From positions 1-34,717 of the forward strand of contig SBGE01000305.1 in NCBI GenBank assembly GCA_006226755.1: a DNA stretch of 34,717 nucleotides. The letters run 5' to 3'. The stretch comes from Deltaproteobacteria bacterium. Its GTDB lineage: Bacteria; Bdellovibrionota; Bacteriovoracia; Bacteriovoracales; Bacteriovoracaceae. Each line of letters opens with the position of its first letter. The first letter of the stretch is position 1. Of this stretch, positions 2,922 through 19,141 are shown piece by piece. The translations under genes and the position numbers were made by a program. The notes below the pieces were generated by a model. It worked only from the letters and a program-made list of their open reading frames with translations, was not told where the DNA came from and ran no database searches.

Positions 2922-2930
2922 GGAGGTTAT

Positions 2931-3392
2931 ATGAGTGAAGTGAAGATTTACTACAAACAGAACAGGCAGCTCTACCTCCAAAAAGGAGAGGATGAGTATG
3001 AAATCCAGGTGAAAAAATGCTTTCCTTGGACTCACCCACTTGAGTACCTGTCCCTAAGAGATGTTGAGGACACAGAAGTCTACTTGGTTGAAAATTTCAC
3101 CCAGCTAGATCCTGAATCCAGGAAAAACCTGGCCTCATATCTGGACAAGAGCGATTACATCCACGAAATCGTAAAAGTCGTCGATGTGATTGAGGATGTT
3201 GAATTGCGCAATTACAAAATCGCCACTAAGGGTGGTGAGCGCTCCATCCAAACACGTCTGGATGATTGGCCGAGTCTCCAGGATGACGGCGGGGTCATCA
3301 TTCAAGATTTGAATGGTGACCTTTTTCGGATCCCGATACCGGAAGAACTGGATGAAAATTCCCGAGAGCTTCTGTCGACTTACATCTCCTAA
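2931..3392 (+). CDS. DUF1854 family protein
   Basis: This 153-aa soluble protein follows the exporter by 9 nt, with AGGAGG overlapping the exporter stop codon, so it is translated at a high rate in the same operon. The central FPWTHPLEYLSLRD stretch and the following acidic/hydrophobic pattern match my memory of the DUF1854 family (PF08909), which is typically encoded beside an exporter of the type seen here. The molecular function of the family is not known to me. A cytoplasmic partner of the exporter's N-terminal domain is a reasonable inference. It is the last gene of the operon; a terminator follows within 10 nt. Confidence 0.8.
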   Translation: MSEVKIYYKQNRQLYLQKGEDEYEIQVKKCFPWTHPLEYLSLRDVEDTEVYLVENFTQLDPESRKNLASYLDKSDYIHEIVKVVDVIEDVELRNYKIATKGGERSIQTRLDDWPSLQDDGGVIIQDLNGDLFRIPIPEELDENSRELLSTYIS

Positions 3393-3511: not shown

Positions 3512-5302
3512 ATGGAAAGAAACCATGGTTGGCTAAAGCCGGGTTGGCCGTTAGTGGCCATCTTTATTATCCTCTCTTACGCTGTGTATGGTCATACACT
3601 TCACTTTCCTTTTTTTGTTTTCGATGATGGCGGTTACATTCTAGTCAATGAACTAGTTAAAGAATTCAGTTTCAAAAATTTTTTTGGGTTCTGGATAAAT
3701 TCAAAAATTCCAGTTCCTTATAATATTTGGCAAGTCACGTACGCCATATTCGGAGAAACACCAGGTCCTTTCCGATTCACCAATATTCTTTTCCATGGTG
3801 CTACTTCCTACATGATTTTTAAAGTTCTCTACAATCTATCGAGTGAAGAGAACAGATCCAAATATTCACTCATCATTTTTACATCAGTTATTTTCTTCCT
3901 CATTCATCCTATGAATGTCGAGTCAGTTGTTTGGATCTCTTCCCTCAATGGAATACTCAGTCTCTTTTTTGGCCTGCTCGCATATGATAATTATTTAAAC
4001 ATCAAAGGCATCTCAGACAAAGAAAGCCTGAAACCAATTACATTTTCTATCGTTTTCTACACACTTTCTCTCCTGAGCAAACCCTCTTCAGCCGTGTTTC
4101 CTGTGATTTTCATTATGACAGACTTGCTCATATTGAATCGAAACATCAAAGAAAAGTGGTGGCTATATGTGTATTATTTTTCACTGACATTTGCTCTTTC
4201 TTTGCTCCATGTCGGTGGAATTGAAACGGTATCTTTCAAAAATATTGGTTGGTTTGAAAAGATCTTTGTTGCCAGTAATGCCATGATCTTCTACGTCTCA
4301 AAAGTTCTACTTCCATTCAAATTACATGTCATTTATCCAAATGGAATTTTTGATGTTATTGCACAAATGAAAGGAAATCAGAAATTCATGATGCCTGTTT
4401 TGAACTTTTCAATCTTTTGCTTCCTGGTAGCATTACTCAGCAAGAAGGAGTATCGAAAAATTTCATGTGGCTTAGCGTTTTTCTTTATTTTACTCATACC
4501 CACATCAGGAATTATTCCTTTTGAATTTCAAAAAATGAGTTATGTAGCTGATCGATATATCTATCATGCTCTATTTGGAATAGTCTTTTCAATTGTATTT
4601 TTAAGCTACCTTCTCCTAGAAAGATTTCACAGGATTGAAAAAATAATCAAGGTTGGAGCACTCTCGTTTCTCGCACTATTTTTCATTAAGAATTTTTCAT
4701 ACTCCGCAAATTGGGTTTCAAACTCTAGTATCCTTGGTGACTCTTACAAGAATGCTTCACATAATCCACACCTAGGACTAGCCTATGCAAACAGCAAGTC
4801 CAATGATTATGAGCTTGATGAATCTCTTTCGATATTAAGTGGAATCTACGAGAGGGAGCCTGGCTTCAATGAAGCACTGAGCACGATAGTTAATACATTC
4901 GCATTTCGTTGTGACTCTCAAAGAACCCAAAAAATACTGAATCTCTTCAGCCGATTGAATGCGACACTCCCTCTCGAAACATTATTAAACAAAGCACAGA
5001 TGCATGTTTCTGTGGGGGAATTGGATAAGGCATATACCATTTTACTCTATATTGAATCCAGTCATCTTAATCTTTCTGATATGGCGGCGACACTTCTAGA
5101 TGAGGTAAAAAGAGGAATTGATTCACTAGAAACAAACAGCTATTTCAACATTGGATATATGAACTTTAGAAGATACAAATTTCAACAAGCTTTGGACTAC
5201 TTCACCAAAGGTAGGAGCATCTCCAGAGACAATAATCAAATCGAAATGTTTGATAATTGGATAAATCAAGCAAAGGACAAGCTACTTGATCCAGAAGACT
5301 AA
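3512..5302 (+). CDS. TMTC/PMT-like GT-C glycosyltransferase with C-terminal TPR repeats
   Basis: This is a 596-aa polytopic inner-membrane protein. The first periplasmic loop carries FVFDDGGYIL (about residues 32-41), the acidic Asp pair typical of GT-C enzymes. The stretch HPMNVESVVWISSLNGILSLFF (shortened motif HPxxVExVxWI) is characteristic of TMTC-like and related bacterial TPR glycosyltransferases. About ten hydrophobic helices span residues 15-395. The last 190 residues are helical with TPR-like periodicity. Family members transfer sugars from a polyprenyl-phosphate donor on the periplasmic face. It opens the plus-strand part of the glycan locus, and its 3' end overlaps the next gene by 17 nt. 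The acceptor could be a glycan or a protein; I cannot tell which. Confidence 0.7.
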   Translation: MERNHGWLKPGWPLVAIFIILSYAVYGHTLHFPFFVFDDGGYILVNELVKEFSFKNFFGFWINSKIPVPYNIWQVTYAIFGETPGPFRFTNILFHGATSYMIFKVLYNLSSEENRSKYSLIIFTSVIFFLIHPMNVESVVWISSLNGILSLFFGLLAYDNYLNIKGISDKESLKPITFSIVFYTLSLLSKPSSAVFPVIFIMTDLLILNRNIKEKWWLYVYYFSLTFALSLLHVGGIETVSFKNIGWFEKIFVASNAMIFYVSKVLLPFKLHVIYPNGIFDVIAQMKGNQKFMMPVLNFSIFCFLVALLSKKEYRKISCGLAFFFILLIPTSGIIPFEFQKMSYVADRYIYHALFGIVFSIVFLSYLLLERFHRIEKIIKVGALSFLALFFIKNFSYSANWVSNSSILGDSYKNASHNPHLGLAYANSKSNDYELDESLSILSGIYEREPGFNEALSTIVNTFAFRCDSQRTQKILNLFSRLNATLPLETLLNKAQMHVSVGELDKAYTILLYIESSHLNLSDMAATLLDEVKRGIDSLETNSYFNIGYMNFRRYKFQQALDYFTKGRSISRDNNQIEMFDNWINQAKDKLLDPED

Positions 5303-5744
5303 CCCCCTCCCATTCTTCCTTACGATTTCAATCGTAGTCATTCTTGTGATTGGATCATGGGCGAGATTAGATAATGACATAGACAAAGTAGATGCAATAT
5401 ATCAATGGATCGATAAGAAACCTGCCTCATTAAAACAGAGCTCAATTCCTTTCGACATCCCTCTTTGTTCAATGTCAGGAAGAAGAATAACATTTTGGAA
5501 ATCTAAATCTTTTAGAGTAGATTTCTTCGCTGAGAAATGGTCTGAAGCCCATTACGGAGTCTATGCACTTACGAAGTCAGGAATAGATTTTATGTGGCAT
5601 AACAAACAGAACTTCATGGAAGAAGATCTTCCTCTCCCAGACAAGGGAAGACATTGGAAATCTCCTTCAAAAAATTTCTTCGTCTATTATTTTGGAAATT
5701 ATTATTCGAATCTATACTGCAGACATTTTCAAACTTTGAATTAG
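5286..5744 (+). CDS. 152-aa membrane-anchored protein of unknown function
   Basis: The TTG start at 5286 overlaps the GT-C gene by 17 nt, which suggests translational coupling. Residues 8-24 form one hydrophobic helix (PFFLTISIVVILVIGSW). The rest is a soluble, probably periplasmic domain rich in aromatic residues, with two Cys (CSM and YCRHF). I recognise no family. The last 33 nt overlap the end of the convergent radical SAM gene. It is probably a partner of the GT-C enzyme, judging only from the overlap. Confidence 0.5.
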   Translation: MIQKTNPLPFFLTISIVVILVIGSWARLDNDIDKVDAIYQWIDKKPASLKQSSIPFDIPLCSMSGRRITFWKSKSFRVDFFAEKWSEAHYGVYALTKSGIDFMWHNKQNFMEEDLPLPDKGRHWKSPSKNFFVYYFGNYYSNLYCRHFQTLN

Positions 5745-6827
5745 TGAAAGAACTTCTGCTCGATCTATCCCTGAGAGACTATCTACCATTGGCCGAATAA
5801 CACGCCCCGCTTTTGCTAATGTTTGATAATCCATATCTCCCAACCAAGAGCGTATAATTCTCATTCTCTCATCGTCAGATAAATCAAGTAATGAATGCTC
5901 AGAAGGAATGTGACAAAAAGTAATAAATGGTGAGATTTCTCTATCTTCGCAAAACTGGATCATATTCTTAATTTCTCTCCAATTATCCTTTTGAATAAGG
6001 AAATTGACTTTTATAGAGAGTGAACTGAGTCCGTTTTCCATTCTTTCTTTTTGATAGGAAAGAAAATCATTTAATGTCTCTCGGACAGTTTTTAACTGTC
6101 CCCTTTTTCTGATTTTCGCATAAGTTTCATCATCCAAACTATCCATACTGATAATCAAATTTTTGAATGATATTTTATTTAACTCATTTTTCATTTTCTC
6201 TGAAAGCTGATAGTGAGCATTCGTTGTAATTGTCCATTTGCAATCAGGATTAATGGAGCTTACTTCATCGATTAGCTTCCATGTATCATTTTGCAGGAAT
6301 GGTTCACCACTCAACATATCGATTTCATGAAGACCTGGAAATAGATCCTTTCTAGCAAAACTCCAAAAATTCTCTTCCGTATAAAAGCCGTTTGGCATTT
6401 CCCAAACGTCGCACATTTGGCAACGCAAATTACAAAAACCATTAAAATTAGCCGTTAACTTGATTGGTAAATTACTTTGAACTTCACTATATTCAACATA
6501 ATCAAGAAGCTGATTATTTTGAGGACACAAATTACATTTTTTATATTTTATTTCGGACGAACAGTTACTGACTTTATTATCCAGAAACTCTCTTCTCCAT
6601 TTTCTTATTGTCTCACCATTCCAGACTTCTTCAAGAGTATTTTCCCTTAAATTACCTACAGTAAATTCCGTTCCCTTTTGACGACAAACCCCAACATCAC
6701 CGTTTGGTTCAAGAATGATGTTAGTAAAAGGCACAAGACAAAAACCTTGTGTATCAAGTCCCTTGGATTCAAAATCCTTTATCGTATTTTGTGTTTCAAG
6801 AAATGTAGAAAGCTGATCTTTTTTCAT
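5712..6827 (-). CDS. twitch-type radical SAM protein
   Basis: This 371-aa enzyme carries the radical SAM 4Fe-4S motif CNLRCQMC (C132, C136, C139) and a GEP motif at 174-176. Before the core is a small SPASM/twitch-like segment with C30, C48, C89, C98 and C101 around PNGDVGVC and WNGETIRKW, which probably binds an auxiliary Fe-S cluster. The order (twitch first, core second) matches the twitch-domain radical SAM family rather than classical SPASM maturases, which have the extra domain at the C terminus. The ATG follows directly on the T-run of an upstream terminator with no Shine-Dalgarno. The substrate is unknown. A second member of the family is at 13179-14540. Confidence 0.85.
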   Translation of the reverse strand: MKKDQLSTFLETQNTIKDFESKGLDTQGFCLVPFTNIILEPNGDVGVCRQKGTEFTVGNLRENTLEEVWNGETIRKWRREFLDNKVSNCSSEIKYKKCNLCPQNNQLLDYVEYSEVQSNLPIKLTANFNGFCNLRCQMCDVWEMPNGFYTEENFWSFARKDLFPGLHEIDMLSGEPFLQNDTWKLIDEVSSINPDCKWTITTNAHYQLSEKMKNELNKISFKNLIISMDSLDDETYAKIRKRGQLKTVRETLNDFLSYQKERMENGLSSLSIKVNFLIQKDNWREIKNMIQFCEDREISPFITFCHIPSEHSLLDLSDDERMRIIRSWLGDMDYQTLAKAGRVIRPMVDSLSGIDRAEVLSLIQSLKMSAV

Positions 6828-6860
6828 AAAAAAAACCAGCTTGTTTTTAGCAAGCTGGTT
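6826..6860 (-). terminator. intrinsic terminator after the S74 gene
   Basis: AACCAGCTTG (6834-6843) and CAAGCTGGTT (6851-6860) form a perfect 10-bp stem. Read on the minus strand it is followed by eight T that run into the ATG of the radical SAM gene at 6827. It ends transcripts of the S74 gene at 6891-7340. Confidence 0.93.
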
Positions 6861-6890
6861 CCCTTTTTAACATTATCAAAATAATTTTTC

Positions 6891-7340
6891 TTATTTCTTA
6901 GACTCTAAGTCTTCGATTTTCTTCTCCAGCATTTCAATTTTCTTAGTGAGCTGTTTAACAGCATCGGCAAGAACTGGAGTAAGGTGAGCATAGTTGATGG
7001 CCTTATAACCATCGTTATCAGTAGCTACCAATTCAGGAAGAACTTTTTCAACTGATTGGGCCATCAATCCAATTTGCTTTCTTGTTGAGAAATTCTTATT
7101 TGGAAAGCTTGTGGCCTTATAATCATATTTCATTGCTGTAAGCGCCATGATCTTTTCAATGGAATCTTCCAATGGCTCTACATTTTCTTTAAATCTGATA
7201 TCTGAGCCGGCGAAAACATCCAGATAAACACTGTCGTTAAGAACTTCAGCTTCAATCTCTTCAAGATTAAATTCTTTGATTCCACCAAAGTAATATCCAT
7301 TTTCTTTATTTTCGGATTTTTTATTTTTCTCGTCGCTCAT
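6891..7340 (-). CDS. stand-alone peptidase S74 (intramolecular chaperone) domain protein
   Basis: This 149-aa protein is almost only an S74 domain, the self-cleaving trimerisation chaperone of phage tail fibres, endosialidases and MYRF. It shows GSDIRFKENV with the catalytic Ser46 and Lys51 at the expected +5 spacing, then KQIGLMAQSVEKVLPELV and INYAHLTPVLADAV. A C-terminal coiled coil follows at about 120-149. Normally the domain sits at the end of a long fibre and cuts itself off; here there is no fibre, only about 40 polar residues before it. AAAGGG 7 nt before the ATG supports the start. It has its own promoter (7369-7398) and terminator. Its role beside a glycan locus is unknown. Confidence 0.88.
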   Translation of the reverse strand: MSDEKNKKSENKENGYYFGGIKEFNLEEIEAEVLNDSVYLDVFAGSDIRFKENVEPLEDSIEKIMALTAMKYDYKATSFPNKNFSTRKQIGLMAQSVEKVLPELVATDNDGYKAINYAHLTPVLADAVKQLTKKIEMLEKKIEDLESKK

Positions 7341-7368
7341 ATGCTAACCCTTTGAATACAGTTAACTC

Positions 7369-7398
7369 ATTATATCATTACTCTCAAAATCATTTCAA
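7369..7398 (-). promoter_or_regulatory. sigma70-like promoter of the S74 gene
   Basis: On the minus strand TTGAAA (7398-7393) and TATAAT (7374-7369) are separated by 18 nt. The start point would fall near 7362, about 20 nt before the start codon at 7340. Confidence 0.6.
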
Positions 7399-7476
7399 TA
7401 AGGTGAAAGCTTTATATCCTACTGAAATCATTGATTTTTTCGAGGTATATTTGAAAGAAACAGACTAATGCTGTCA

Positions 7477-7499
7477 GATTAGCCAAAGAATGGCTGATC
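7477..7499. promoter_or_regulatory. inverted repeat, candidate operator
   Basis: GATTAGCCA (7477-7485) and TGGCTGATC (7491-7499) are an almost perfect 9-bp inverted repeat around AAGAA, with one G-T pair. It has no T-run, so a terminator is unlikely. It covers the -35 zone of the promoter of the peptidase gene at 7530. Confidence 0.4.
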
Positions 7500-7512
7500 G
7501 AGCTCCACATAG

Positions 7513-7521
7513 TGCTAAAAT
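7513..7521 (+). promoter_or_regulatory. extended -10 promoter of the S26-like peptidase gene
   Basis: TGCTAAAAT is an extended -10 (TGn plus TAAAAT at 7516-7521) placed 8 nt before ATG 7530. There is no Shine-Dalgarno, so a leaderless transcript is likely. The GTG at 7512, in frame upstream, would lie in the promoter itself. Confidence 0.45.
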
Positions 7522-7529
7522 ATCAAAAT

Positions 7530-7952
7530 ATGGAAGATCGACAATATTCGGGGCCTTATCATGACCAAACCAGCTTTGATTCTTTAAAAGAGAGAATCAA
7601 AAAGCAAGGTTTCATGGGAATCAGAATCATTTCGGATTCAATGGACCCATTTATCCAAGTTGGGGAAGAAGTCACTGTCAGTGAATTCGTGAATAACAAA
7701 CAGCTGCAGCGGTTCACCCCAATTCTCTACTGGGATGGGAAAAAACTTGTCTGCCACTATTTTTGGAATCAAAGCAGAATTCCAAATGCTGATGGGAAAC
7801 AAACAATTGTTACCAGAAGCCTCAAACAAACCAAAAGCAATGACGTTCCTGTTCCTATAGAGAACATTCTGGGGATTGTTGTTGGCCGTAAGTTGTCAGC
7901 CATGAAAAGGATCTCAATTCTTCTCAGTAATATCTTTTCATCTACAGGATGA
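7530..7952 (+). CDS. S24/S26-family (signal-peptidase-like) peptidase
   Basis: This is a 140-aa protein. IISDSMDPFIQVGEEV contains the catalytic S-M-x-P motif with Ser37 before Met38. Further on, KKLVCHYF places His76 where ER/archaeal-type (Sec11-like) signal peptidases have their catalytic His, and VTRSLK...NDVPVPIENILGIVVG matches the conserved C-terminal box of the family. There is no clear N-terminal anchor; the last 20 residues are only mildly hydrophobic. GTG 7512 is an alternative start. It is 40 nt before an exporter pair, so it may process a peptide or protein handled by that exporter or by the PqqD/radical SAM enzymes. The target is unknown. Confidence 0.75.
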   Translation: MEDRQYSGPYHDQTSFDSLKERIKKQGFMGIRIISDSMDPFIQVGEEVTVSEFVNNKQLQRFTPILYWDGKKLVCHYFWNQSRIPNADGKQTIVTRSLKQTKSNDVPVPIENILGIVVGRKLSAMKRISILLSNIFSSTG

Positions 7953-7992
7953 ATAATCGATAAAAGTGAATGTTTACAGTAGAATATAAAGA

Positions 7993-8769
7993 ATGAATGA
8001 AAAAATCTTTCAACGACTATATTGGGAGCAGGTAAAAAATCTTACTATTGCCAATATGAAATCCCGCTATCGTAAAACTTTTGCGGGTTTTCTATGGGTA
8101 GTGATGAGCCCTATTTTGATTTATGGTGTTCAATCACTTGTATTCAAGCATTTTCTAAAAATAGATATCCAGAACTATTCACTTTTTCTTCTCGGTGGTC
8201 TCTTGCCATGGATATTCATTACACAAAGTATAGACATGTGTACCCCCCTCTTTTTGACCAACAGAGATCTTTTGCTTGGTTTTAAAATTAATCCACTGGT
8301 TATCTTACTAAGTCAGATATTGGACAATTTTTTCAATTTCCTATTTGCCTTCATGCTATTGCTGATACCTTTCTGGATCATTCTGGGGGATAACATTGGA
8401 GGATTACCGTATTTATTCTTTGCCTTGGTTAATCTGATCCTGGGTCTGATTGGTGTCGCGTGGCTTCTCTCTATCTTGCAAGTTTTCTACCGAGATACCA
8501 GATTCGTCTTGCCCTTTATTACCAACGTCGCACTTTTTTTAACGCCAATTTTTTATCCACCAGAATTTGTACCAGAAAATCTAAGACCAATTATTGAAGC
8601 AAATCCACTCTATCTTCTGATAGTACCTGTCAGAACTTGTATTTATAGTTTCACATCAGATTTGTTTCTGAAGCAGATATTAGTGGGAAGCTTGGTCACT
8701 GTGACAACATTATCACTTGCATATTTTTATTGGAGAAAGAAGAGAAATGAATTCTATATCCATCTCTGA
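7993..8769 (+). CDS. ABC-2 type polysaccharide export permease (Wzm-like)
   Basis: This 258-aa inner-membrane protein has about six helices. The N-terminal amphipathic segment [20 protein letters not shown] is a hallmark of O-antigen and teichoic-acid export permeases. The C-terminal region [11 protein letters not shown]...[12 protein letters not shown] is the other conserved block of the family. With the overlapping ATPase gene it would move lipid-linked glycan across the inner membrane. It starts 40 nt after the peptidase gene. TAGAAT lies just before the ATG and could be a further promoter. Confidence 0.92.
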
Positions 8770-9535
8770 AAAACATATTGCAACAGTCAAAGAACTACGC
8801 TTGGCTTATAATCTCGATTATTTTGAAGCAAATAATTTGAGAGATTTTTTCGTCAAGGGTCTAAAAGCTCCGATTGATTTCTTACTAAAGCCAAAAGAGA
8901 CATACCTTGCTCTTGATGATGTCAATTTAACCATCAATAGAGGCGATCGGATTGGTGTCCTTGGACACAACGGAAGCGGTAAGACCACCTTATGTAGATG
9001 TCTTTCCGGTATGCTTGTTCCTACAGAGGGAACGGTTGAAACACATGGAGAAGTTCGACCGATTTTCAATACGACAATTTCAGTTTTGCCAGAATTGACA
9101 GGAAGAGAAAATGCTCAAATGTTGGCCCTTCTGCTTTTTCCAGAAATGACTGAAGAAGAAAGGGAAAACCTTGTAAAAGAAGGTCTTGAGTTTGCGGAGC
9201 TGGGCAAATTCTTGGATGTTCCATTCAAGAGCTACAGTCGTGGCATGCAAGCAAGACTTTGCCTTTCAATTATTACGGCCAAACCTTGCGACCTTTTGAT
9301 TCTAGACGAAGTCTTCGAAGGCGCAGACCAAGCATTTCAAAAGAAAATTTCCAAGAGAACACTCGGCCTGATCGAAGACTCAGGCGCGGTTGTCCTTGTC
9401 AGTCACTTTCCAGAGCATGTAGAGATGTCCTGTAACAGAGTCATCATTATGGAAAAGTCGAAAATTGTTTTTGATGGTGGAGTTGAAGAAGGGGTGAAAA
9501 TCTACCGAAAAATGTCCAATCTAGGTCAACTTTGA
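8747..9535 (+). CDS. ABC export ATPase (Wzt-like, short form)
   Basis: This is a 262-aa ATPase with Walker A GHNGSGKT (73-80), the YSRGMQAR signature typical of polysaccharide exporters, Walker [11 protein letters not shown] and the switch region VLVSH. It lacks the C-terminal carbohydrate-binding domain of E. coli O8/O9a Wzt, so export probably does not depend on recognising a chain-end modification through this subunit. ATG 8747 has purine-rich GGAGAAAGAAG upstream; a TTG at 8717 would add 10 residues. It overlaps the permease gene by 23 nt and converges with the nucleotidyltransferase gene with a 10-nt overlap. Confidence 0.93.
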
Positions 9536-10500
9536 AGAGTGATCAATTTTTTGAAACCTTCGCTCAATTCCGGAGAATCACTCAATTTCCTTGCTAAGAG
9601 GATAAAGTTTTCTATGTGTCGTATCAAACCTTGTTTATCCTTGATCTGATGATATTGAGTAAAAAGACCCCAGATCTCCCACTCAATTTGCGCCTTTAAC
9701 AAGTTTCTTTCTATCAGAGAAAAATTTTGAATCAATGAAAGATCTTCTTCCATTTTACAGTGATGTAATGTAGCCCCAAGCCACCTGTTAGGAGCCAACA
9801 TTAGAAAATCTCTTACAGGGGCAGTGGAATAGAATCTATTCCAAGCATTGATATCTTGATAATGATTTTGAATCAGCTTACCTAGAAAACCTTTCTGATA
9901 AGATGGTAAGTTGGAGACGAGTAGACGCTCTTCACAGAATTCAAAAATTTCTGAAGGTGTATTGAATTTATTGCAATACTCTGAGAACCCTAGATCTAAT
10001 AAATGACGATTCCACTTTCTTCTTCTTGTCGAAAAATCAGTACGAATGCCGTATGTATCTGATGCAAGACAACGAAGAAAGAAACAGATTTTCTCTTCGA
10101 TAGTGATCTCTCTATTGTATTTTAATCGCTCTCTAAGGATTGGATCACGCCGAGCTTCAAGGGGATTCAAATATATTTTAAAGTTTTCAACTTCATCATT
10201 CTCAATCCAATTCACTTCCCCCAAAAAAGGGAGAAAATATTTTAGTTTTACGTACAGTCGAATGAAATCTTGGTATGTCTTATCGTCAATGGATTTTGAA
10301 AATACTGTCAGATCGAGATCTGAAGCTCCGGGAGTCAGAGTTTTAAGAGCATGACCATTTCTAGACCAAATTTCCAAATCAAAATGAGAAAAATAGGCCC
10401 TAACTATTTCCAAGCCATAATCATAAGGTAATGTTGCAATAGGGTAAGGCAACAATTTGAGAAATTTACTAACTCCTACCCCGATGTCTTTTGTTTTCAA
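9526..10500 (-). CDS. nucleotidyltransferase-fold protein
   Basis: This is a 324-aa protein. [10 protein letters not shown] (58-67) gives the G-x-S-D-x-D metal site of polymerase-beta-like nucleotidyltransferases (D61, D63). The remaining 200 residues are mostly helical, as in the uncharacterised nucleotidyltransferases that often accompany PqqD-type and glycan genes. It could nucleotidylate a sugar, small molecule or protein. The TTG start overlaps the stop of the upstream gene (TTGA), so it depends on translational coupling; I see no ribosome binding site. It is the last gene of operon B. Fold assignment is fair, substrate unknown. Confidence 0.6.
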
Positions 10501-11444
10501 ATTGAGTAGACCCAGTTTACATAAGAATACAATTCAGAATTGAAAAAGACTGGGACAATTTCTGATGCACGTTCATTTTCCAATAAAAAGCTTTGATCTT
10601 CCTTAAGTAGTTCTTCTACTTTAGAACGTATTTTTTGATAGTCTGATGGCCACGAGTCTGTAACCTGCAGATGTAAATTCGAACCAACTTGAATAGTATC
10701 CGAACTCAAACCGACCTCTCCATCAATTCGTATACAACCTTTAGATGAAAATAGATGATCCACATAACTTTCAGAAAATACGATCTTGCGAGGATTGAGA
10801 TTCAAACATCTTGCACCGGTCAGATTCATTAATGAAAGCTTTTCGAGTGAAGTGAAGATCGTTTCATTCTGATAGTTATTACTTATTGAGGCTATAATCT
10901 CTGCTAGATATGAATCTCCGGACTGTTGAGTTTCAAGGCCTCGAATTGACAATGACATCGGTAGCACAATTAAACGTGCTGGATTATATTCGGCCTTAAT
11001 GTTTTCAATATTCATTTTAAGATCATCTAAACTGACGATGCACTCATGACCAGTTACTGCTAAGACAAAATCTGAGCTTTTCTCGTTTTCCGCAATTTTA
11101 TGCTGAAAAAGTAACACATTATTTTTCCAAGATTCTGGCACCAAACGGTAATGAACTCTATCAATGAGAATTTTTGTATGAATCCCTGAGGGCTCCGGAA
11201 AAACTGAAAAGAAGCGCGCGAGTCCCATTGCCCCATCTTTAGCCAGGACATAATCAAAGAAACCTAGTTTTTGAATATTTTTAATATAGAACAACCACAT
11301 CGGTCTTAAGCGATTAGTAAAAATTTTAGTATGGGGTTTAAGTGTTTCTTCAAATTCTTCATCTATCTCTTCGAGATCCAACCACATCTCACTTCTATTG
11401 AACTGAAACTCTTGCTCTTTATCATTTACATTAAAAATTTCCAT
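10497..11444 (-). CDS. 315-aa protein of unknown function in operon B
   Basis: I recognise no family. The protein is soluble, without signal peptide or membrane helix, acidic at its N terminus (LDLEEIDEEFEETL) and mixed alpha/beta in appearance. Segments such as FVLAVTGHECIVSLDD and RLIVLPMSLSIRG look like strand-loop-helix units of a Rossmann-like enzyme. It begins 2 nt after the GT4 stop codon and shares TTGA with the nucleotidyltransferase gene, so the two are probably made together and may form a complex or act in consecutive steps. Confidence 0.65.
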   Translation of the reverse strand: MEIFNVNDKEQEFQFNRSEMWLDLEEIDEEFEETLKPHTKIFTNRLRPMWLFYIKNIQKLGFFDYVLAKDGAMGLARFFSVFPEPSGIHTKILIDRVHYRLVPESWKNNVLLFQHKIAENEKSSDFVLAVTGHECIVSLDDLKMNIENIKAEYNPARLIVLPMSLSIRGLETQQSGDSYLAEIIASISNNYQNETIFTSLEKLSLMNLTGARCLNLNPRKIVFSESYVDHLFSSKGCIRIDGEVGLSSDTIQVGSNLHLQVTDSWPSDYQKIRSKVEELLKEDQSFLLENERASEIVPVFFNSELYSYVNWVYSI

Positions 11445-11446
11445 TT

Positions 11447-12694
11447 TCAGACTTCCTGATAACTCTTGTATATTTCTCTATACAATTTTGAATAACCACC
11501 GAGACCACTTCTGAATGGAGCTTTGGGATTGAGTTCATAACATGCAGAGAACTTTTTAAATTGAGGAGTAAATCCGTCAAAAGACTTGATCAACGGCAGG
11601 ATACCATCGACAAGCTCTCCTGTTCGCTTGCTACCTAACACTCTACGTCCTTCAGTACTAAGTGCTTCACGATCCAATTCATTCAAAACACCAGTTCCTA
11701 ACATTATTTTTCTGAACTGTAGAAGATCTGGGCTTACGGTATCGTTATCAACGTTTATGCTCACAAGAGAAACTCTATTGGAAAAGTATGAATGGAATGA
11801 ATTGAATCCTCCCCATGATGAAAGTACACATGGTAAACCACAACATATGGCCTCAGCAGGAGACATTCCATAATCTTCATCATTATGAGTGCTCAAGCTT
11901 ACAAAAGCATCGGCAGCACAATATAATGCTCTCAACTCTTCATGCCGTTTACTTCCCAAGTAAATCACACTCTCTGTCATTTTGAGTTCATTTAAAAACA
12001 AACTCTCATAATGACCATCTGGCATGACTTTGCCCAGATAAGGGACCCCAAGATCATCGAAGTCACCACATATCAATAATTTCGCATTTACATTCATTTG
12101 CTTAACCGACGACTCAAATGATCTCATCAGATCGATCACATTCTTTTGAACAGAAAGTCTTCCACTGTAGATAAAAACTTGTTCGTCTTTCAAGCCGAGC
12201 ATTTCTCTTGTGGTATTTCTCAATTCTTTACTATATGAAAAGTTATCGGACACAGGAAAGGGCACAACTGAAAGATTCTCAGAGTTTATAAAGTGCGCAA
12301 GTAGATTCCGTTGAGAGTCAGATGCTGTAATAAAATGGCATGGCCTTTTTTTCAATATCACTTCCACTGAATTCCATTCAGGTGAAAAAAGTGTGAAATC
12401 ACCAAAAACATGAAAAACGACTTGAGGTGAGTAATCTTTAAAAGCTTTGTCCATCGACTGAACTAACTTCAGTGGTGTTGGCTTATGGTCAATAAAAATA
12501 ACTCTTTCTATTTTTCTTCGCTTGATCTCATTGAATATTTGAAAATATTTGAATTTATCAACAACCTCAGGGACGCAGAATGTTGTAACATCCTCACCAT
12601 ATCTTTTTCGATACATCTGTTCCAAGTTTTGGGTAATTGATCGACAACTCACCCACTCAGACAATTCCTCTTTTTTGATTAATGCAATTTTCAC
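11447..12694 (-). CDS. GT4-family glycosyltransferase
   Basis: This 415-aa GT-B fold enzyme is predicted to be cytoplasmic. The C-terminal domain begins with VFIYSGRLSVQKNVIDLMRSF (donor-binding entry), includes VIYLGSKRHEELRALYCAADAFV, and has the complete EX7E motif EDYGMSPAE followed by GLPCVLSSWGG. These are typical of retaining GT4 transferases using a nucleotide sugar. It overlaps the anchored protein gene by 4 nt (ATGA). It is related in layout to the GT at 16116-17459 but keeps the second Glu. Sugar and acceptor are unknown. Confidence 0.9.
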   Translation of the reverse strand: MKIALIKKEELSEWVSCRSITQNLEQMYRKRYGEDVTTFCVPEVVDKFKYFQIFNEIKRRKIERVIFIDHKPTPLKLVQSMDKAFKDYSPQVVFHVFGDFTLFSPEWNSVEVILKKRPCHFITASDSQRNLLAHFINSENLSVVPFPVSDNFSYSKELRNTTREMLGLKDEQVFIYSGRLSVQKNVIDLMRSFESSVKQMNVNAKLLICGDFDDLGVPYLGKVMPDGHYESLFLNELKMTESVIYLGSKRHEELRALYCAADAFVSLSTHNDEDYGMSPAEAICCGLPCVLSSWGGFNSFHSYFSNRVSLVSINVDNDTVSPDLLQFRKIMLGTGVLNELDREALSTEGRRVLGSKRTGELVDGILPLIKSFDGFTPQFKKFSACYELNPKAPFRSGLGGYSKLYREIYKSYQEV

Positions 12695-13182
12695 TTTTTA
12701 CCCTCGTCACAATAATCTGAGTTGAAATTTTCCTCTCGTGTTTCAATTCCTTTAACAAGCCCAACCTTATCCCAATCATAGATATAGCCAAAATAGCGCA
12801 ATTCGAATTTGTCTTTATTTTTCACATAAAATCTAAGTTTCCTATTTTCAATATTTACTCTACCAACATAATCTGGTTGTTTTTTATTATCTATTTCAGT
12901 AGCTATTTCATAATTGTCGAAATATTTAAAATTTTTATTCTCATCTATCATGAGCACTCTTGGCACAGCTCCCTTATTGCATAATTTCTGTTCAGAAAAA
13001 GAGAGCATCATATTAGCTGGAACCTCTTTTTCATCAACTAGACTTCTGTCGAGAATTTTTTGAAGTTGCTCAACTTTAGATCTCAATTCAGAGACTTTTT
13101 TGCGATTGCTTATCTCCATCCCGAAAACGAATATCACCAGCACTGCCATAATCACATAAATCCACTTCATATCTATCTTCAT
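12691..13182 (-). CDS. 163-aa membrane-anchored protein with coiled coil
   Basis: Residues 6-23 form a single membrane helix, 28-50 a short coiled coil (KKVSELRSKVEQLQKIL), and the remainder a small beta-rich domain that begins QKLCNKG and ends with a second Cys (DYCDEG). The pair of Cys may form a disulfide in the periplasm. The same plan, down to an LC..G box and a final C-x-E-G, is seen in the protein at 23880-24488. I recognise no family. ATGA overlaps on both sides couple it to the radical SAM and GT4 genes, so it probably scaffolds or anchors operon B products. Confidence 0.65.
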   Translation of the reverse strand: MKIDMKWIYVIMAVLVIFVFGMEISNRKKVSELRSKVEQLQKILDRSLVDEKEVPANMMLSFSEQKLCNKGAVPRVLMIDENKNFKYFDNYEIATEIDNKKQPDYVGRVNIENRKLRFYVKNKDKFELRYFGYIYDWDKVGLVKGIETREENFNSDYCDEGKK

Positions 13183-14540
13183 GTTTGTTCAACTCCAAAC
13201 TTACTTAGAAATTTACTCTTTTTGGCCTCGACATAAAATTCTTTCATCTCTGGAAAAGTTTCCACGAAAGAAGATCCATATCTTTTGTCATATTCATTTA
13301 CGAATGAGAAAAAGTCCCCCCGTAAAGATACATTTTCCTCATCTGCATGAGAGGAAATCATCCAATTTAGAATGCGCGCTAATTTATTTACTTCGTGACT
13401 ACTGAATCCATCACCTTTTTCACTTTGATGCTGCTTCATCCAATGTAAATCTTCTTTAACAATCTCGATAAGGGATTCTCCCACCAAATTTGCTCGCAAA
13501 TAATCAGGGTCTTTCAAATAACTCAAATCCAGGATAACGTTTCCTGTATCTTTTTTAATTTCATATATCTCTTGAAGTAATTTTCTAAATCCTGTGATGG
13601 ACATAACTCCAAATGTCCCCATAATTATGACCCTGGCTTCGGGTAATTCTTTGGCAAATTTTTTGATATTTGAGACAAACTTCTGATAATCAAGACCTCT
13701 TCTTATATATTCAGCTTGTTTGCCGGAGGAATCGACTGAGGCAAAGAGATCGAAGCTCTTTATCTTTTTATTTTCCAACAAGCTCTTAACTTTTTTAATG
13801 AATTTATCAATTATTTGATCAGGAATGATCAAATTCGAGTTAAATGAAAGTGAAAGTTTTTTAAAGCTGCCTTCATCAATTTTTTCCAAAAGTGTTTCTG
13901 TTTCAGAAGACAATAGTGGTTCTCCACCAGTAATCCGTAGGACCTCCAGGTCACTTTCCAAATCTGGTAGCCACTTCCAAAAAGCCTTAATATATGGATT
14001 TTCATTTTGTGGATATTTTTTCAATGGTCCTTGATACATCCGATGATCTTTAGATTTGACCGGATAAGGACCGAATTTTTTCATTTCAGAATATATACTT
14101 GAACTGATTGGAGCCAAGCAATATGAACAACTTAAATTGCATGTATTATCAAACATCACTTCCAGATAAGTTGGATTGATATTTTGATCCCACTCCAACT
14201 TTTTTACTTTTTCTAAATGTGGCCATGCCCAATCATCTGAAGACTTGATCAAGCGATCACTATAATGATCCCCTGGGGTATCTTCTATCTTCCAACAGTA
14301 TTCACACTCTGGAGGACGCACGCCTTCAAGCATCAGTTTTCTTTGTTCTTTTTTGAATGGAGTATTGTGTAATTGAGATGGATTTTCATCTAATCCTTCA
14401 ATTGGAATGTCATGCCTTTTTGGATGGTGACAACTATGTGTGGTTCCATTAACCAAGTCAATTGTCACCTGTAACCATTTCGCAAGACAAAATGACGGGG
14501 AAACATTGTTAATTTGCTTTGCGATTTCAGCTTTATCCAT
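13179..14540 (-). CDS. twitch-type radical SAM protein, first gene of operon B
   Basis: This is a 453-aa enzyme. The radical SAM motif is CNLSCSYC (C134, C138, C141), followed by RITGGEPLL. The N-terminal twitch segment has C18, C37 (HSCHHP), C79 and C82 (ECEYCWKIED), likely ligands of an auxiliary cluster. ATG 14540 is chosen because the longer open frame to 14810 runs through the PqqD gene on the other strand and has no family-like sequence. It shares its regulatory region with the divergent PqqD-like gene, the partner expected for a peptide-modifying radical SAM enzyme. The substrate could be a peptide or a sugar-linked intermediate. It is a second family member besides 5712-6827. Confidence 0.85.
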   Translation of the reverse strand: MDKAEIAKQINNVSPSFCLAKWLQVTIDLVNGTTHSCHHPKRHDIPIEGLDENPSQLHNTPFKKEQRKLMLEGVRPPECEYCWKIEDTPGDHYSDRLIKSSDDWAWPHLEKVKKLEWDQNINPTYLEVMFDNTCNLSCSYCLAPISSSIYSEMKKFGPYPVKSKDHRMYQGPLKKYPQNENPYIKAFWKWLPDLESDLEVLRITGGEPLLSSETETLLEKIDEGSFKKLSLSFNSNLIIPDQIIDKFIKKVKSLLENKKIKSFDLFASVDSSGKQAEYIRRGLDYQKFVSNIKKFAKELPEARVIIMGTFGVMSITGFRKLLQEIYEIKKDTGNVILDLSYLKDPDYLRANLVGESLIEIVKEDLHWMKQHQSEKGDGFSSHEVNKLARILNWMISSHADEENVSLRGDFFSFVNEYDKRYGSSFVETFPEMKEFYVEAKKSKFLSKFGVEQT

Positions 14541-14565
14541 TGCATAAATTTTACCTTTCCCCTGT

Positions 14566-14588
14566 ATTATAGGCAAATTACCTTGCCT
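14566..14588 (-). promoter_or_regulatory. operon B promoter -10 with overlapping inverted repeat
   Basis: TATAAT is read on the minus strand at 14571-14566, 25 nt before the radical SAM start codon. It touches a perfect inverted repeat AGGCAA-N6-TTGCCT (14571-14588). A protein bound there could control operon B and perhaps the divergent PqqD gene. No clear -35 box is seen. Confidence 0.45.
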
Positions 14589-14646
14589 CAGAATCATCAA
14601 CTTTGTTAACATTGATGCTAGTTGGCAAATTGAATCGGAGGATACT

Positions 14647-14940
14647 GTGAGCAGTTCAACAGACATACTCAATGACACTTTTAAAGTTGCTGAAGATATA
14701 ATCTCGAGAACCAACCAAGATGGTACTTGTGTACTTATGCGTATGGATGACTCTTCTGTCTTTTTTAAAATTGACGGCGTGGCAGCAGAAATCTGGCAAG
14801 AAATAGCCAAAGGCCAGAAGGCCAGTGAAATTCTTGACCAGTTGGCTCAGAAACATTCCGTTGAAAAGTCCATTATTGAACAGGACACAAAAAAGTTTCT
14901 CGAAGAGATCTTGGGCAAGAACTTTATCGCAAAAGCATGA
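14647..14940 (+). CDS. PqqD-like protein (RiPP recognition element fold)
   Basis: This 97-aa protein carries a pattern typical of PqqD: an MDDSSVFFKIDGVAAEIWQE segment (strand, then the xVGxxIWxxL helix), KASEILDQLAQ, a QDTKKFLEEI helix and a final hydrophobic strand. PqqD proteins hold a precursor peptide and deliver it to a radical SAM enzyme; PqqD-like proteins also occur in glycan clusters without a known peptide. GTG 14647 is fixed by GGAGG at 14637-14641. It is divergent from the radical SAM operon and is the only plus-strand gene within 9526-22343. Its stop codon abuts that of the aminotransferase with no gap. No precursor peptide is visible nearby. Confidence 0.82.
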   Translation: MSSSTDILNDTFKVAEDIISRTNQDGTCVLMRMDDSSVFFKIDGVAAEIWQEIAKGQKASEILDQLAQKHSVEKSIIEQDTKKFLEEILGKNFIAKA

Positions 14941-16107
14941 TCATAAGAGGCTGGCCAAAAGGTCGGCCTTTTTTTCAAACTCTGATTCTGATCCTTCCAA
15001 ATCCAGAAAAATCTTAACTGTAGAACTTAGTATTTCAACCGACTTTAAAAAATCAGTTTTTTTATACTCAATATCAAGGGACTTAAAGGGATTCATTTCA
15101 GGATGATGAAATCTTGCTTTATTAAATTGTTCCATCCACTGCCAACAAACATGTGCAGGTCTTCCAGTGACAGGCATAGCGATAATATTATTGGCCAATA
15201 GATTTTTCACAAGACTCATCATTTCTAGCGGATCATTTAATTTAATATGGACTGAAGTTCCACAATCTCCGGCTTCACAATTGCCACCAATGACAGACCT
15301 ATGAGCTGATTCTATTTTCTTCTTCATGACAGACTTTCTCTGTCGTAAATCTTCAAGAATCTTATCAAGACGATCAAGCTGCACATCCAACATCGCGGCT
15401 TTAATATTATCAAATCTCATTGAATGTCCCACTAAGAGATCTTCTTCTGAAAACATGTCTTTTTTGGTATCACCAAACTGGCAGGGAGCATCATGAAAAG
15501 AGAAAGCTTTTTTATATTTCTTCTCATTATTGGTAACGAATGCCCCACCTTCTCCACAAGAGATAATCTTATCGACATTAAAGCTGAAACAGCCCATTTC
15601 TCCGATCGTTCCTAATCGGTGTCCCTTATAGCTGCCACCTACTGCTTGAGCGGCATCTTCAATCACAACAATATTTTTCTTTTTAGCAATCTCACAAATT
15701 TTATCCATATCACAGGCCAGACCATCCATGTGAACAGGAATAACTGCTTTTGTTTTTCCAGTAATTTTTGATTCAAACTCTTCAGTATCTAAGCAAAGTG
15801 TTTCATCAATATTAACGATGACAGGTATAGCTCCGACCTGAGTAATCGCGGTTGCAGTTGCGACAAAAGTAAACGAAGGTATGATGACTTCATCACCTGG
15901 TCCAATACCGGAAGCAGCAAGAGCGCAAACCAATGCGTTAGTTCCACTTGTCAGCATTATTGAATGTTTAACTCCAAATAGTTTAGAAAACTTGGCTTCG
16001 AGTTGATCAACCAAAGAACTTCTTTCCCTACCTTCGTAGCGGAAGTATTTTTTAGATAAAATAACTCTTGATACGGCGTCAGCCTCTTCCTGTCCTACTC
16101 TGTACAT
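14941..16107 (-). CDS. DegT/DnrJ/EryC1/StrS-family PLP aminotransferase
   Basis: This 388-aa enzyme is expected to aminate a keto-sugar or keto-cyclitol. FSFNVDKIISCGEGG places the PLP Lys at residue 180, with the usual GEGG following. SGTNALVCAL binds the cofactor phosphate and VIEDAAQAVG holds the Asp that contacts the pyridine nitrogen. ATG 16107 has AGGA 6 nt upstream; the TTG at 16128 would overlap the preceding GT gene. It is the last gene of operon A. Beside aroB-type and carbamoyltransferase genes it recalls aminocyclitol pathways, but nucleotide-sugar amination is equally possible. Confidence 0.93.
   Translation of the reverse strand: MYRVGQEEADAVSRVILSKKYFRYEGRERSSLVDQLEAKFSKLFGVKHSIMLTSGTNALVCALAASGIGPGDEVIIPSFTFVATATAITQVGAIPVIVNIDETLCLDTEEFESKITGKTKAVIPVHMDGLACDMDKICEIAKKKNIVVIEDAAQAVGGSYKGHRLGTIGEMGCFSFNVDKIISCGEGGAFVTNNEKKYKKAFSFHDAPCQFGDTKKDMFSEEDLLVGHSMRFDNIKAAMLDVQLDRLDKILEDLRQRKSVMKKKIESAHRSVIGGNCEAGDCGTSVHIKLNDPLEMMSLVKNLLANNIIAMPVTGRPAHVCWQWMEQFNKARFHHPEMNPFKSLDIEYKKTDFLKSVEILSSTVKIFLDLEGSESEFEKKADLLASLL
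14948..14975 (+). terminator. terminator of the PqqD-like gene, inside the aminotransferase 3' end
   Basis: AGGCTGGCC (14948-14956) pairs with GGTCGGCCT (14961-14969) through nine pairs including two G-U, with an AAAA loop and a run of seven T. It works for plus-strand transcripts but lies wholly in codons of the convergent aminotransferase gene. Confidence 0.85.
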
Positions 16108-16115
16108 GGACTGTC

Positions 16116-17459
16116 CTAATACACCCAACCATTGGTCAGTAATTCGTTTCTTTTAATATTTTCCACTTTTCCCTTGTGCGGGTCAACAAAACCACTATCT
16201 TTTACCCAAGGGGCCAATTCTCCAGAGATCTCTGATCGCACTATTTGATCAGACATACCATAAGCTCTAAAAAAATCTTGAGCCATTTCATCGCTATAAG
16301 ACTCAAAGCAATGACATTGTCGTTTTCCTATAAGCTTGTTTCGTTTGGACTGAACGTCAAACGAAAGCGTACTTCTCATTAGATCCTCTGAAGATCCCCT
16401 ATCTTGTTGGGACAAAATTTCTTCGTATTTTGAAACAACAGTCTCAAATGTATAATTATCGGTTGAGATAGTATTTATAGAATAATTTTCAAGCTTATCC
16501 ACAATTGCATTTTTAAGCTCTAGTGGATCAAGACATGGTCCGTAAGACCCCTCTTTTACAGAGATTAAAGAGACAGCATTTTTAAACTCCGATTTGAAAT
16601 CTGTATGCCCCCCCCAATCAGAGAGAATAGCTGTTGATCCTGCCATCAAACTTTTCAAAGCAGCCATTCCGAAATTTTCATCTGAATGAAGACTCGGAGA
16701 AATGAACACATGTTCGTTTTCGATAATCCATTGATCTAATTTATTTCTTTCTACGAAACCTTCTAGTGAGACATTTTTGAGATTTAGATCTTCGATCTCT
16801 TTTTTCAGAAAATTCAAGTAATCAATAGGTGGGATGTCCATATTAGGGCTACCTAAGTCATCACCTTTTCCAAATAACTTGAGCCTGTATTTCAAATTGG
16901 AATGCTCTTTATTAACTAGAGCGCAAACCCACAAAAGTTGGTGAAGATTTTTTTGTTCAGCCAATCTCCCAACATAAACTAATGTTGTGACATCACTCTT
17001 CACTCTATTTGAGGATTTTATAGTTAATGAGTGAAAGGGTACAATTTCACATCTGGCATTTTCGAATGTCAGTTTAAAGGCAACGGCATCACGTTTACAT
17101 GTCGAATAAAAAACATCACTTTTCTTTAACAGCCTTCCAATACCGAATTCAAAAAGAGGCCAGCACCCGACAGAAGCCAGGCCATGGAGATGAAAATGGA
17201 TTCTTGCGTCTACCCCGAGTTTTTCCCGTATCAAAACAACGGCATTAGATATTTTAATATTGAACGAGGTGACAATAAGATTCTGACATTTCAGCAATGA
17301 AGGCATGTGAGACTTGAGATCATCAGCATCTAAGTTCAGCAGAAGAACTTCTTCTCCACGTCTCTTTGAAACCTCTTTCCAGCAATCCACCAAACCAGGA
17401 ATAATCTCCTGCATCGATGTCCAAATAAAATTGTCTTCACTGTATAAAATTACATTCAT
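16116..17459 (-). CDS. GT4-like glycosyltransferase with altered EX7E motif
   Basis: This 447-aa GT-B protein has the usual VYVGRLAEQKNLHQLLW entry to the donor domain and VSLEGFVERNKLDQWI further on. The motif region reads DENFGMAALKSLMAG, so the second Glu of EX7E is replaced by Lys. In GT4 enzymes that Glu contacts the donor sugar, so the protein may use an unusual donor or be inactive. A C-terminal extension of about 90 residues follows the GT domain and contains CHCFESYSDEMAQDF. It is joined to the carbamoyltransferase gene by an ATGA overlap and leads into the aminotransferase gene after 8 nt. Confidence 0.87.
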   Translation of the reverse strand: MNVILYSEDNFIWTSMQEIIPGLVDCWKEVSKRRGEEVLLLNLDADDLKSHMPSLLKCQNLIVTSFNIKISNAVVLIREKLGVDARIHFHLHGLASVGCWPLFEFGIGRLLKKSDVFYSTCKRDAVAFKLTFENARCEIVPFHSLTIKSSNRVKSDVTTLVYVGRLAEQKNLHQLLWVCALVNKEHSNLKYRLKLFGKGDDLGSPNMDIPPIDYLNFLKKEIEDLNLKNVSLEGFVERNKLDQWIIENEHVFISPSLHSDENFGMAALKSLMAGSTAILSDWGGHTDFKSEFKNAVSLISVKEGSYGPCLDPLELKNAIVDKLENYSINTISTDNYTFETVVSKYEEILSQQDRGSSEDLMRSTLSFDVQSKRNKLIGKRQCHCFESYSDEMAQDFFRAYGMSDQIVRSEISGELAPWVKDSGFVDPHKGKVENIKRNELLTNGWVY

Positions 17460-19141
17460 TTCTTACTTATTATAAAGTCACCTGCGATGACATAATCTAC
17501 CTTGGACTGCCTGTAAAAACTTTCCAAATCATTTAATGACTCAACAATGGGCTCTCCCATTATATTTAAACTTGTATTGAGAAGAATTTCATCGCCACTC
17601 AACCGACCAAACTCAGTCAGTAAACAATGATATCTTTTATTTTGTCCTCTTCGCACTGTCTGCATTCGAGACGTTCCATCAACATGAGATACTTCTTTTA
17701 AAAAATCAAGCATCTGATTTTTCACAGGAACAGCGAAAGACATGTATGGTGTCTCAAAATTTTCTGGAAACTCAAAATACTTTCCAGCTGTTTCAAATGT
17801 TACTGAACAGCCATATGGTCTGAAACTTTCTCTAAATTTGATATTTTCATTTAAATAATTTTTCAAATCAGGAAAATCGACTCTGGCCAATATGCTCCTA
17901 TTTCCCAAAGCGCGAGGGCCTGATTCTGAGCGACCTTGAAACCAAGCAATCACATTATTTTCGTACAATAGCTTCGCAGTATCTTTTTCGACTTGATCAC
18001 TTTTTTCCAAATGATAGTTTGAAAAGACAGTTCGAACATTTTCTTCAGTAGGAACTGATTGTACTGGCCCGAAATATCCATGCTGATCTTTTTTATTAAA
18101 CACTTTCCAAGAGTTATCCTGATGATACTTATAAGAGGCGCAACCCAATGAAATCGAACTGTCTCCAGGAAAAGGAGTTACATATATATCTTTGAAACTA
18201 CTCCATTCATATACTTTCATGTTGGATGTACAATTCAGTGCACACCCTCCAGTTAAAATCAAATTTTGCGAATGGCCTTCTACATCATGAATGACAGCTC
18301 TGAAAAATTTCTCAAACTCAAACTGAGCCGTAGCTGCTAAATCCTGATAAAGCTTCATATTGGGTGAGTTTTCCCAATCTTTTTTACTCCCCCCTTTCCA
18401 GGCCTGATCTTCCCAATTCAATTTCTCTAAGAAAGACCAGTAATCTTCTACTGGCAACGGCTTACCAAAAGGAGCCAATCCCATAACTTTTCCAGCAGCT
18501 TGATTGGAGTTAAATATAAACTCTGCAATATTCTCGTAAAAAATTCCAACGCCAGTAGAAAAACTCTTTTTCGAATGCTTTTCACTTTCACGAAAGCGTT
18601 GCCAATACTTACGTTTAAATTCCAGTTTACCTTTTTTAAATGAATAAATCGTACACATTTCGAGATCATTCATTGTCACAGCGGGTGATACTGTCAGCTC
18701 ATCATGGCCATAAGGAAAATCTTTAATATTGGTTCCTGCTCCATCGAATACAATCACAACAGCCTCTTCGAATGGACTCATAAGGGCTGCCGCCCAAGCA
18801 TGTGCTTGATGATGCGGAATAAACTCAATTTCTGGATTTAATAGAGTCGAATATTTCTCTAGATTTTTATTTTTAGCATAGACCTCAAAAGGGAACCTCT
18901 CATCCATCATCTGTTCTTTGACCTTAGGATGGATAACATCTCTATTCTCAACTATATTTTGCTCAATATTACCAAATCGATCCCTAAGGTTGAGGATTGC
19001 TTTTTCTGGCCATAACCCACAAGCCTTTTCACGTGTAAGTCTCTCCATTAGTTGAATTTCAATTTCTCTACTAAGAAATTTCTTAGAAATGACAGCTGCT
19101 GACGAATTATAAAGGGTTTTTCCAAGCCCTAAATAGTTCAT
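17456..19141 (-). CDS. NodU/CmcH-type O-carbamoyltransferase
   Basis: This 561-aa enzyme transfers a carbamoyl group from carbamoyl phosphate, through carbamoyl-AMP, to a hydroxyl. The Kae1-like domain shows HHQAHAWAA (H110, H111, H114), VFDGAG (D133) and LTGGCALNC. The C-terminal domain shows ESGPRALGNRSIL and NTSLNIMGEPIV, both near-consensus. Length is normal. Known relatives decorate Nod factors, antibiotics such as novobiocin, and LPS sugars. It shares ATGA overlaps with both neighbours, so its product stoichiometry is tied to aroA and the GT. The acceptor is probably the sugar or cyclohexene unit built by the operon. Confidence 0.95.
   Translation of the reverse strand: MNYLGLGKTLYNSSAAVISKKFLSREIEIQLMERLTREKACGLWPEKAILNLRDRFGNIEQNIVENRDVIHPKVKEQMMDERFPFEVYAKNKNLEKYSTLLNPEIEFIPHHQAHAWAAALMSPFEEAVVIVFDGAGTNIKDFPYGHDELTVSPAVTMNDLEMCTIYSFKKGKLEFKRKYWQRFRESEKHSKKSFSTGVGIFYENIAEFIFNSNQAAGKVMGLAPFGKPLPVEDYWSFLEKLNWEDQAWKGGSKKDWENSPNMKLYQDLAATAQFEFEKFFRAVIHDVEGHSQNLILTGGCALNCTSNMKVYEWSSFKDIYVTPFPGDSSISLGCASYKYHQDNSWKVFNKKDQHGYFGPVQSVPTEENVRTVFSNYHLEKSDQVEKDTAKLLYENNVIAWFQGRSESGPRALGNRSILARVDFPDLKNYLNENIKFRESFRPYGCSVTFETAGKYFEFPENFETPYMSFAVPVKNQMLDFLKEVSHVDGTSRMQTVRRGQNKRYHCLLTEFGRLSGDEILLNTSLNIMGEPIVESLNDLESFYRQSKVDYVIAGDFIISKK

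Follow-up and report, generated by a model that had tools for sequence, protein, structure and literature searches.

Mycofactocin formation relies on the precursor MftA, the RRE MftB, the radical SAM enzyme MftC, the peptidase MftE and the glycosyltransferase MftF. Among RiPPs, a near-invariant core is unusual in antibiotics and usual in cofactors, and the S74 domain is, in known cases, active as a trimer. Mycofactocin is oligoglycosylated by MftF (PMC7491314), and PsmN, a nucleotidyltransferase-like enzyme, attaches hexoses to a lasso peptide (PMC9266682). The RREs of lasso systems recognise a YxxP motif in the leader (PMC12710340). In MyRF, an S74 autoprotease that is a solved relative of the S74 domain described below, the equivalent Ser and Lys lie five residues apart and the chain is cut just before the Ser (PMC8326128).

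The analysed stretch of DNA (the window), a contig of 34.7 kb, comes from a member of the Bacteriovoracaceae, a relative of predatory bacteria. Its glycan locus, spanning 5.7 to 19 kb, encodes on the sugar side two GT4 glycosyltransferases, a DegT aminotransferase, a NodU-type carbamoyltransferase and a Wzm/Wzt-like ABC pair, together with a nucleotidyltransferase-fold protein, two radical SAM enzymes, an S24/S26-like peptidase and one PqqD. An initial annotation of this interval had described RiPP-like maturation parts inside a glycan locus and found no obvious precursor next to them. The list of parts is right apart from two corrections, on the class of the radical SAM enzymes and on the peptidase, and the RiPP-like reading stands, but the claim of a missing precursor does not, as the interval holds a small S74 protein whose leader-like N-terminus tracks PqqD. 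The other genes considered are the following:

3512..5302, plus strand: large membrane-type protein with a TPR-like end, possible GT-C glycosyltransferase (sequence character only)
5712..6827, minus strand: radical SAM enzyme with an N-terminal SPASM domain (PF04055, PF13186)
7512..7952, plus strand: soluble S24/S26-like peptidase, candidate leader peptidase (TIGR02228, E 3e-5)
7993..8769, plus strand: ABC-2 permease, Wzm-like (PF01061; NF050109 49 bits, below cut-off)
8717..9535, plus strand: ABC ATPase, Wzt-like, without C-terminal glycan domain (PF00005; NF050108 159 bits, below cut-off)
9526..10500, minus strand: nucleotidyltransferase-fold protein (AlphaFold2 pLDDT 88)
10497..11444, minus strand: 315-aa protein, partner of the GT4 and nucleotidyltransferase genes (family in 24/36 loci)
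11447..12694, minus strand: GT4 glycosyltransferase, paired with the 315-aa protein (PF00534)
13179..14540, minus strand: N_Twi radical SAM enzyme, 453 aa (NF033640 320 bits, cut-off 170)
14647..14940, plus strand: PqqD-family RRE protein, 97 aa (PF05402), GTG start behind GGAGGA
14941..16128, minus strand: DegT-type sugar aminotransferase (PF01041)
16116..17459, minus strand: second GT4 glycosyltransferase (PF00534)
17456..19141, minus strand: NodU-type carbamoyltransferase (PF16861, PF02543; present in 22/36 loci)

The TPR match of the membrane-type protein is weak and its family is found in 13/36 loci. Two further features of the window were noted. At 17456-22343, the genes for chorismate synthase, DHQ synthase and EPSP synthase continue, with short overlaps, into those of the carbamoyltransferase and GT4, an order conserved in the nearest relative (L025), and at 648-3392 an ABC transporter and DUF1854 pair is similar to the cyanophycin-metabolism-associated pair, with NF052233 and NF052234 below their cut-offs.

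As in mycofactocin, a PqqD-like RRE, a radical SAM/SPASM enzyme, a peptidase and a glycosyltransferase are combined with a proposed short peptide bearing a conserved Tyr. Unlike in mycofactocin, the precursor would carry an S74 autoprotease, the locus adds an N_Twi radical SAM enzyme, a nucleotidyltransferase, a carbamoyltransferase and a Wzm/Wzt-like exporter, and the radical SAM maturase model TIGR03962 reaches 34.8 bits against a cut-off of 265. The glycosylated or phosphorylated lasso peptides paeninodin and pseudomycoidin offer the closest PqqD-type protein by profile (B1, through TbiB1) and a nucleotidyltransferase-like enzyme, theirs decorating the peptide with hexoses (PMC9266682). However, the leader here reads YxFG[GE][IL] and not YxxP, the resemblance being one of +3/+5 spacing only, and among the window proteins scanned there was no Pfam match to the lasso B2 protease or to the asparagine-synthetase-like cyclase. 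The exporter pair already named in the initial annotation consists of an ABC-2 permease and an ATPase and leans to Wzm/Wzt, whose polysaccharide exporters likewise lie amid glycosyltransferases. It differs from these in its scores below the family cut-offs, in a short ATPase without a glycan-binding tail and in its steady position beside PqqD and a peptide precursor.

The 97-aa protein was correctly described at the outset as a PqqD-like recognition protein. It matches PF05402 with 43.9 bits (cut-off 23.4), the only match to this family in the whole genome, and its top profile match is TbiB1, a lasso-peptide RRE of solved structure (E 1.6e-12), so that both comparisons assign it to the PqqD fold family. 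The PqqD tree, in which 22/85 branches are well supported, is poorly resolved and does not discriminate between one and several origins of the S74-type PqqD.

Inspection of the neighbourhoods of PqqD relatives revealed a small S74 protein as a recurrent companion. In the window it has the following parts:

6891..7340, minus strand: S74 protein, 149 aa, proposed precursor made of leader, core and self-cleaving trimeric chaperone domain (PF13884 58.5 bits)
7239..7295, minus strand: leader motif YYFGGIKEFNLEEIEAEVL, residues 16-34, proposed PqqD-binding segment (conservation, leader HMM)
7206..7238, minus strand: proposed core NDSVYLDVFAG, residues 35-45, with predicted release by a cut between G45 and S46
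6894..7205, minus strand: S74 intramolecular chaperone/autoprotease domain with a Ser46-Lys51 dyad and a C-terminal coiled coil

The 149-aa protein is probably the missing precursor of the peptide-maturation system. Of 369 Bdellovibrionota genomes, 31 encode the S74 protein with its leader, 35 encode the PqqD type and 30 encode both (Fisher 9e-38, our co-occurrence tests ignoring phylogeny), a distribution that is patchy within genera, yet joint. The S74 gene is often adjacent to pqqD, 15-200 bp apart, and in three genomes (G201, G341, G337) PqqD, leader, core and S74 domain form a single ORF with PqqD first. Against this count a distance of 6-17 kb between the two genes in some loci, including the present one, an S74 protein without a clear PqqD (G075) and two genomes with PqqD but neither the S74 protein nor a found peptide (G111, G240). 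On these genomic comparisons the pairing is well supported, no other gene being as tightly linked to PqqD as that of the S74 protein. The locus has what characterises an RRE-dependent RiPP system, a genetically linked candidate precursor with a conserved leader (30/31 co-occurrence, three fusions).

The 45 residues ahead of the S74 domain, which starts at residue 46, are MSDEKNKKSENKENGYYFGGIKEFNLEEIEAEVLNDSVYLDVFAG, and the family shares the N-terminal pattern YxFGGIkEFNLEEIEaEVLNDSVYLDVFAG/SD...K, where the slash marks the predicted cut. Over 31 genomes the mean entropy of residues 15-44 is 0.83 bits versus 1.67 bits for the S74 domain (p 4e-5), the N-terminus being the more conserved part. 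G19, L26, I29, E30 and L34 of the leader are invariant in the 31 sequences, as are Y39 and D41-G45 of the core, and YLDVFAG[S/C]D is nearly fixed; such a near-invariant core, atypical of an antibiotic RiPP though typical of a cofactor one, is a point against the precursor reading. The Ser-Lys dyad is kept in 31/31 relatives, Cys replacing Ser once and Lys51 being invariant, and the spacing of Ser46 and Lys51 equals that of S587 and K592 in MyRF. The protein thus resembles endosialidase tailspikes and MyRF in its domain match, in a dyad with +5 spacing and in its C-terminal coiled coil, but here the S74 domain stands nearly alone behind 45 residues of leader and core and is not part of a fibre or transcription factor. 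In the three fibre S74 proteins that we examined the core is not conserved and the residues preceding the Ser are quite different.

No relative of the S74-leader protein was found in the viral contigs searched, nor its N-terminus in the phage records searched, and plasmid matches were rejected because they are fibre S74 domains of the usual kind, in which the leader motif is missing. One S74 precursor of the phylum (L032:10240-10749) has its leader motif partly repeated (YYFGGIE, YDFGGIE). An S74-containing RiPP precursor, including the RRE-fused form, was absent from the literature searched, which covers few subscription journals. Other small ORFs were also considered as precursors. The 163-aa and 152-aa proteins, small anchored proteins that had been suggested as substrates, lack the leader motif in our scan and do not pair with PqqD, and the 45-aa ORFs, contained within genes but in different reading frames, show neither leader motif nor PqqD pairing.

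Both radical SAM enzymes had been called twitch-type. This is loose, because only the 13179-14540 enzyme passes the NF033640 cut-off, the SPASM-type enzyme reaching 88 bits on this model. The true start of the N_Twi enzyme is at 14540, the longer ORF being a false extension over pqqD. Its orthologues were found in 24 genomes, all with PqqD (24/24), and those of the SPASM-type enzyme in 34 genomes, PqqD being present in 30/34; the score limits for both families were placed at gaps in the match lists, after viewing these lists. The initial annotation had made its reading depend on a constant linkage of pqqD with the radical SAM genes, and since both families are tied to PqqD across the phylum, that reading holds on this point. 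A point against the RiPP-type reading is that tandem arrays of Twi-type enzymes also exist where PqqD is absent, as in L022:3095-15091, where eight N_Twi-type radical SAM genes are arrayed in one glycan locus.

The S26-like peptidase of the initial annotation is weak when judged on its own TIGR02228 match but is upheld by its relatives, 6/16 family members matching Peptidase_S24 (best E 3e-6), with invariant Ser, Met, Pro and His. Its family adjoins PqqD in the distant loci L123, L133 and L137. A Pfam scan of the 9526-10500 protein gave no match; its AlphaFold2 model has a nucleotidyltransferase core with an SDLDL motif, and aligned to structures with VIA-align its best chains were nucleotidyltransferases, with a modest Z of 6.9 over about residues 15-130. 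S60, D61, D63 and E95 are invariant in the family, consistent with the SD-x-D signature, and these results agree with the fold originally assigned. The model of the 315-aa protein is poor (pLDDT 59), and its structural matches, glycosyltransferase-like, are weak. The GT4 and 315-aa pair adjoins PqqD in L126, L128, L130 and L131, and is also found in sister loci.

The sister loci L015, L016, L017 and L019 combine N_Twi, GT4 and nucleotidyltransferase genes with a more distant PqqD. L017 is the only one of the four to lack Wzm/Wzt genes; members of the 315-aa family were matched in L015 and L017, and weakly in L016. Each of the four encodes, no more than 40 bp from pqqD, a peptide of 53-63 aa with the motif ...FGSLxPLTxxQI..., e.g. 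...VSFGSLTPLTTAQIITLLVGTTGSNSSYGGY. Near other PqqD genes, the S74-leader HMM identified a precursor-like 39-aa ORF in L148, ...SYDFGGIEEFEPSIDDELVVHGSGY (E 7e-4). Its further precursor-like matches, in L128, L136, L125 and L130, are weaker, and most of the matches outside L148 are individually insignificant. The FGSL peptides were not recovered by this HMM, and the kinship proposed for them is based on the short motif and on gene context. The bare leader motif was counted 11 times against a mean of 4 and a maximum of 9 in shuffles, which is modestly above chance, and the precursor argument was therefore not built on this count. Leader homology is thus supported, not proven, because the FGSL peptides escape the HMM and the motif count exceeds the shuffled counts only moderately.

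Near other PqqD genes, in several genomes of the phylum, we observed a further family of likely precursors, ...YxxPEIxxExLxxFGAxCNGxxSGGRKSxxxxPNFCNAxKLxS (L149:2902-3150, L154:6790-6975, L156:2876-3046, L159:5010-5195, L161:6659-6832). At L130:5198-5455 and L131:2800-3063, adjoining PqqD, GT4 and the 315-aa family, are ORFs that resemble precursors: their leader reads YFFGELKKIEL, and a long tail rich in Gly, Pro and Ser closes with RPAPMY.

Given the co-occurrence of S74 and PqqD, their fusions, the conservation of the leader, the sister peptides and the tracking of PqqD by radical SAM enzymes, we propose, with a probability of about 60%, that the glycan locus contains an RRE-dependent RiPP-type system in which an S74 precursor would have its core modified and would cut itself. 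Much as lasso RREs recognise YxxP, PqqD would bind the N-terminal leader of the S74 protein (YxFGGIxEFNLEEIE) and would present the adjoining core, NDSVYLDVFAG, to the candidate modifying enzymes, which are the two radical SAM enzymes and those of the GT4/nucleotidyltransferase module. The S74 domain would trimerise and cut between Gly45 and Ser46, leaving the core with a free C-terminus, which the short sister precursors possess without any cut. The S24/S26-like peptidase is a candidate for removal of the leader, and the Wzm/Wzt-like pair a candidate exporter of a glycosylated peptide or of a glycan built on the peptide. By our own judgement, it is very likely that the S74 protein is the substrate of PqqD and likely that it cuts itself as predicted; the balance tips slightly towards a modification of its core, and a glycan sitting on the peptide is suggested tentatively.

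A different role for the same proteins would be that of a trimeric scaffold, in which the S74 N-terminus docks PqqD and PqqD gathers the glycan enzymes at the ABC exporter, with no peptide product. Such a role would suit the trimers formed by all solved S74 relatives, the C-terminal coiled coil, the fusions holding PqqD and S74 in one chain and a locus dominated by glycan enzymes, but a pure scaffold would not need the self-cleavage dyad found in 31/31 relatives. Moreover, the invariant residues extend beyond the leader up to the cut, and free short peptides take the place of S74 at related PqqD loci, so that we regard the scaffold as unlikely. The absence of a fibre region ahead of the S74 domain, with only 45 residues there, and of a signal peptide in the sequence also makes it improbable that the S74 protein acts as a minimal surface fibre, displayed in glycosylated form and served by PqqD as its glycosylation chaperone. 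Large fibre proteins of the phylum commonly end in an S74 domain, and Bdellovibrio fibre adhesins reportedly use such trimers (PMC10769870), yet the leader is missing from the fibre S74 proteins, and the other S74 matches of the phylum start near position 44 and belong mostly to proteins of at least 500 residues.

The initial annotation had also offered PqqD as serving a carrier-bound sugar intermediate, which would make the S74 gene a passive neighbour. A glycan locus with a Wzm/Wzt-like exporter is a natural setting for this role, but the S74-PqqD fusions, the near-perfect co-occurrence and the short leader peptides adjoining related PqqD genes disfavour it as the sole function, and we consider it highly improbable.

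Beyond the RRE-dependent RiPP-type system that we favour, a ribosomal peptide recognised by PqqD and released by the S74 autoprotease might prime a surface glycan for Wzm/Wzt-type export, in a peptide-primed polysaccharide pathway; we regard this extension as rather doubtful. An S74-type RiPP precursor would escape genome miners seeking short precursors, and the system suggests a novel type of sugar-decorated peptide. If the core anchors the glycan, the logic of RiPPs would also apply to the way in which predatory bacteria assemble surface polysaccharides.
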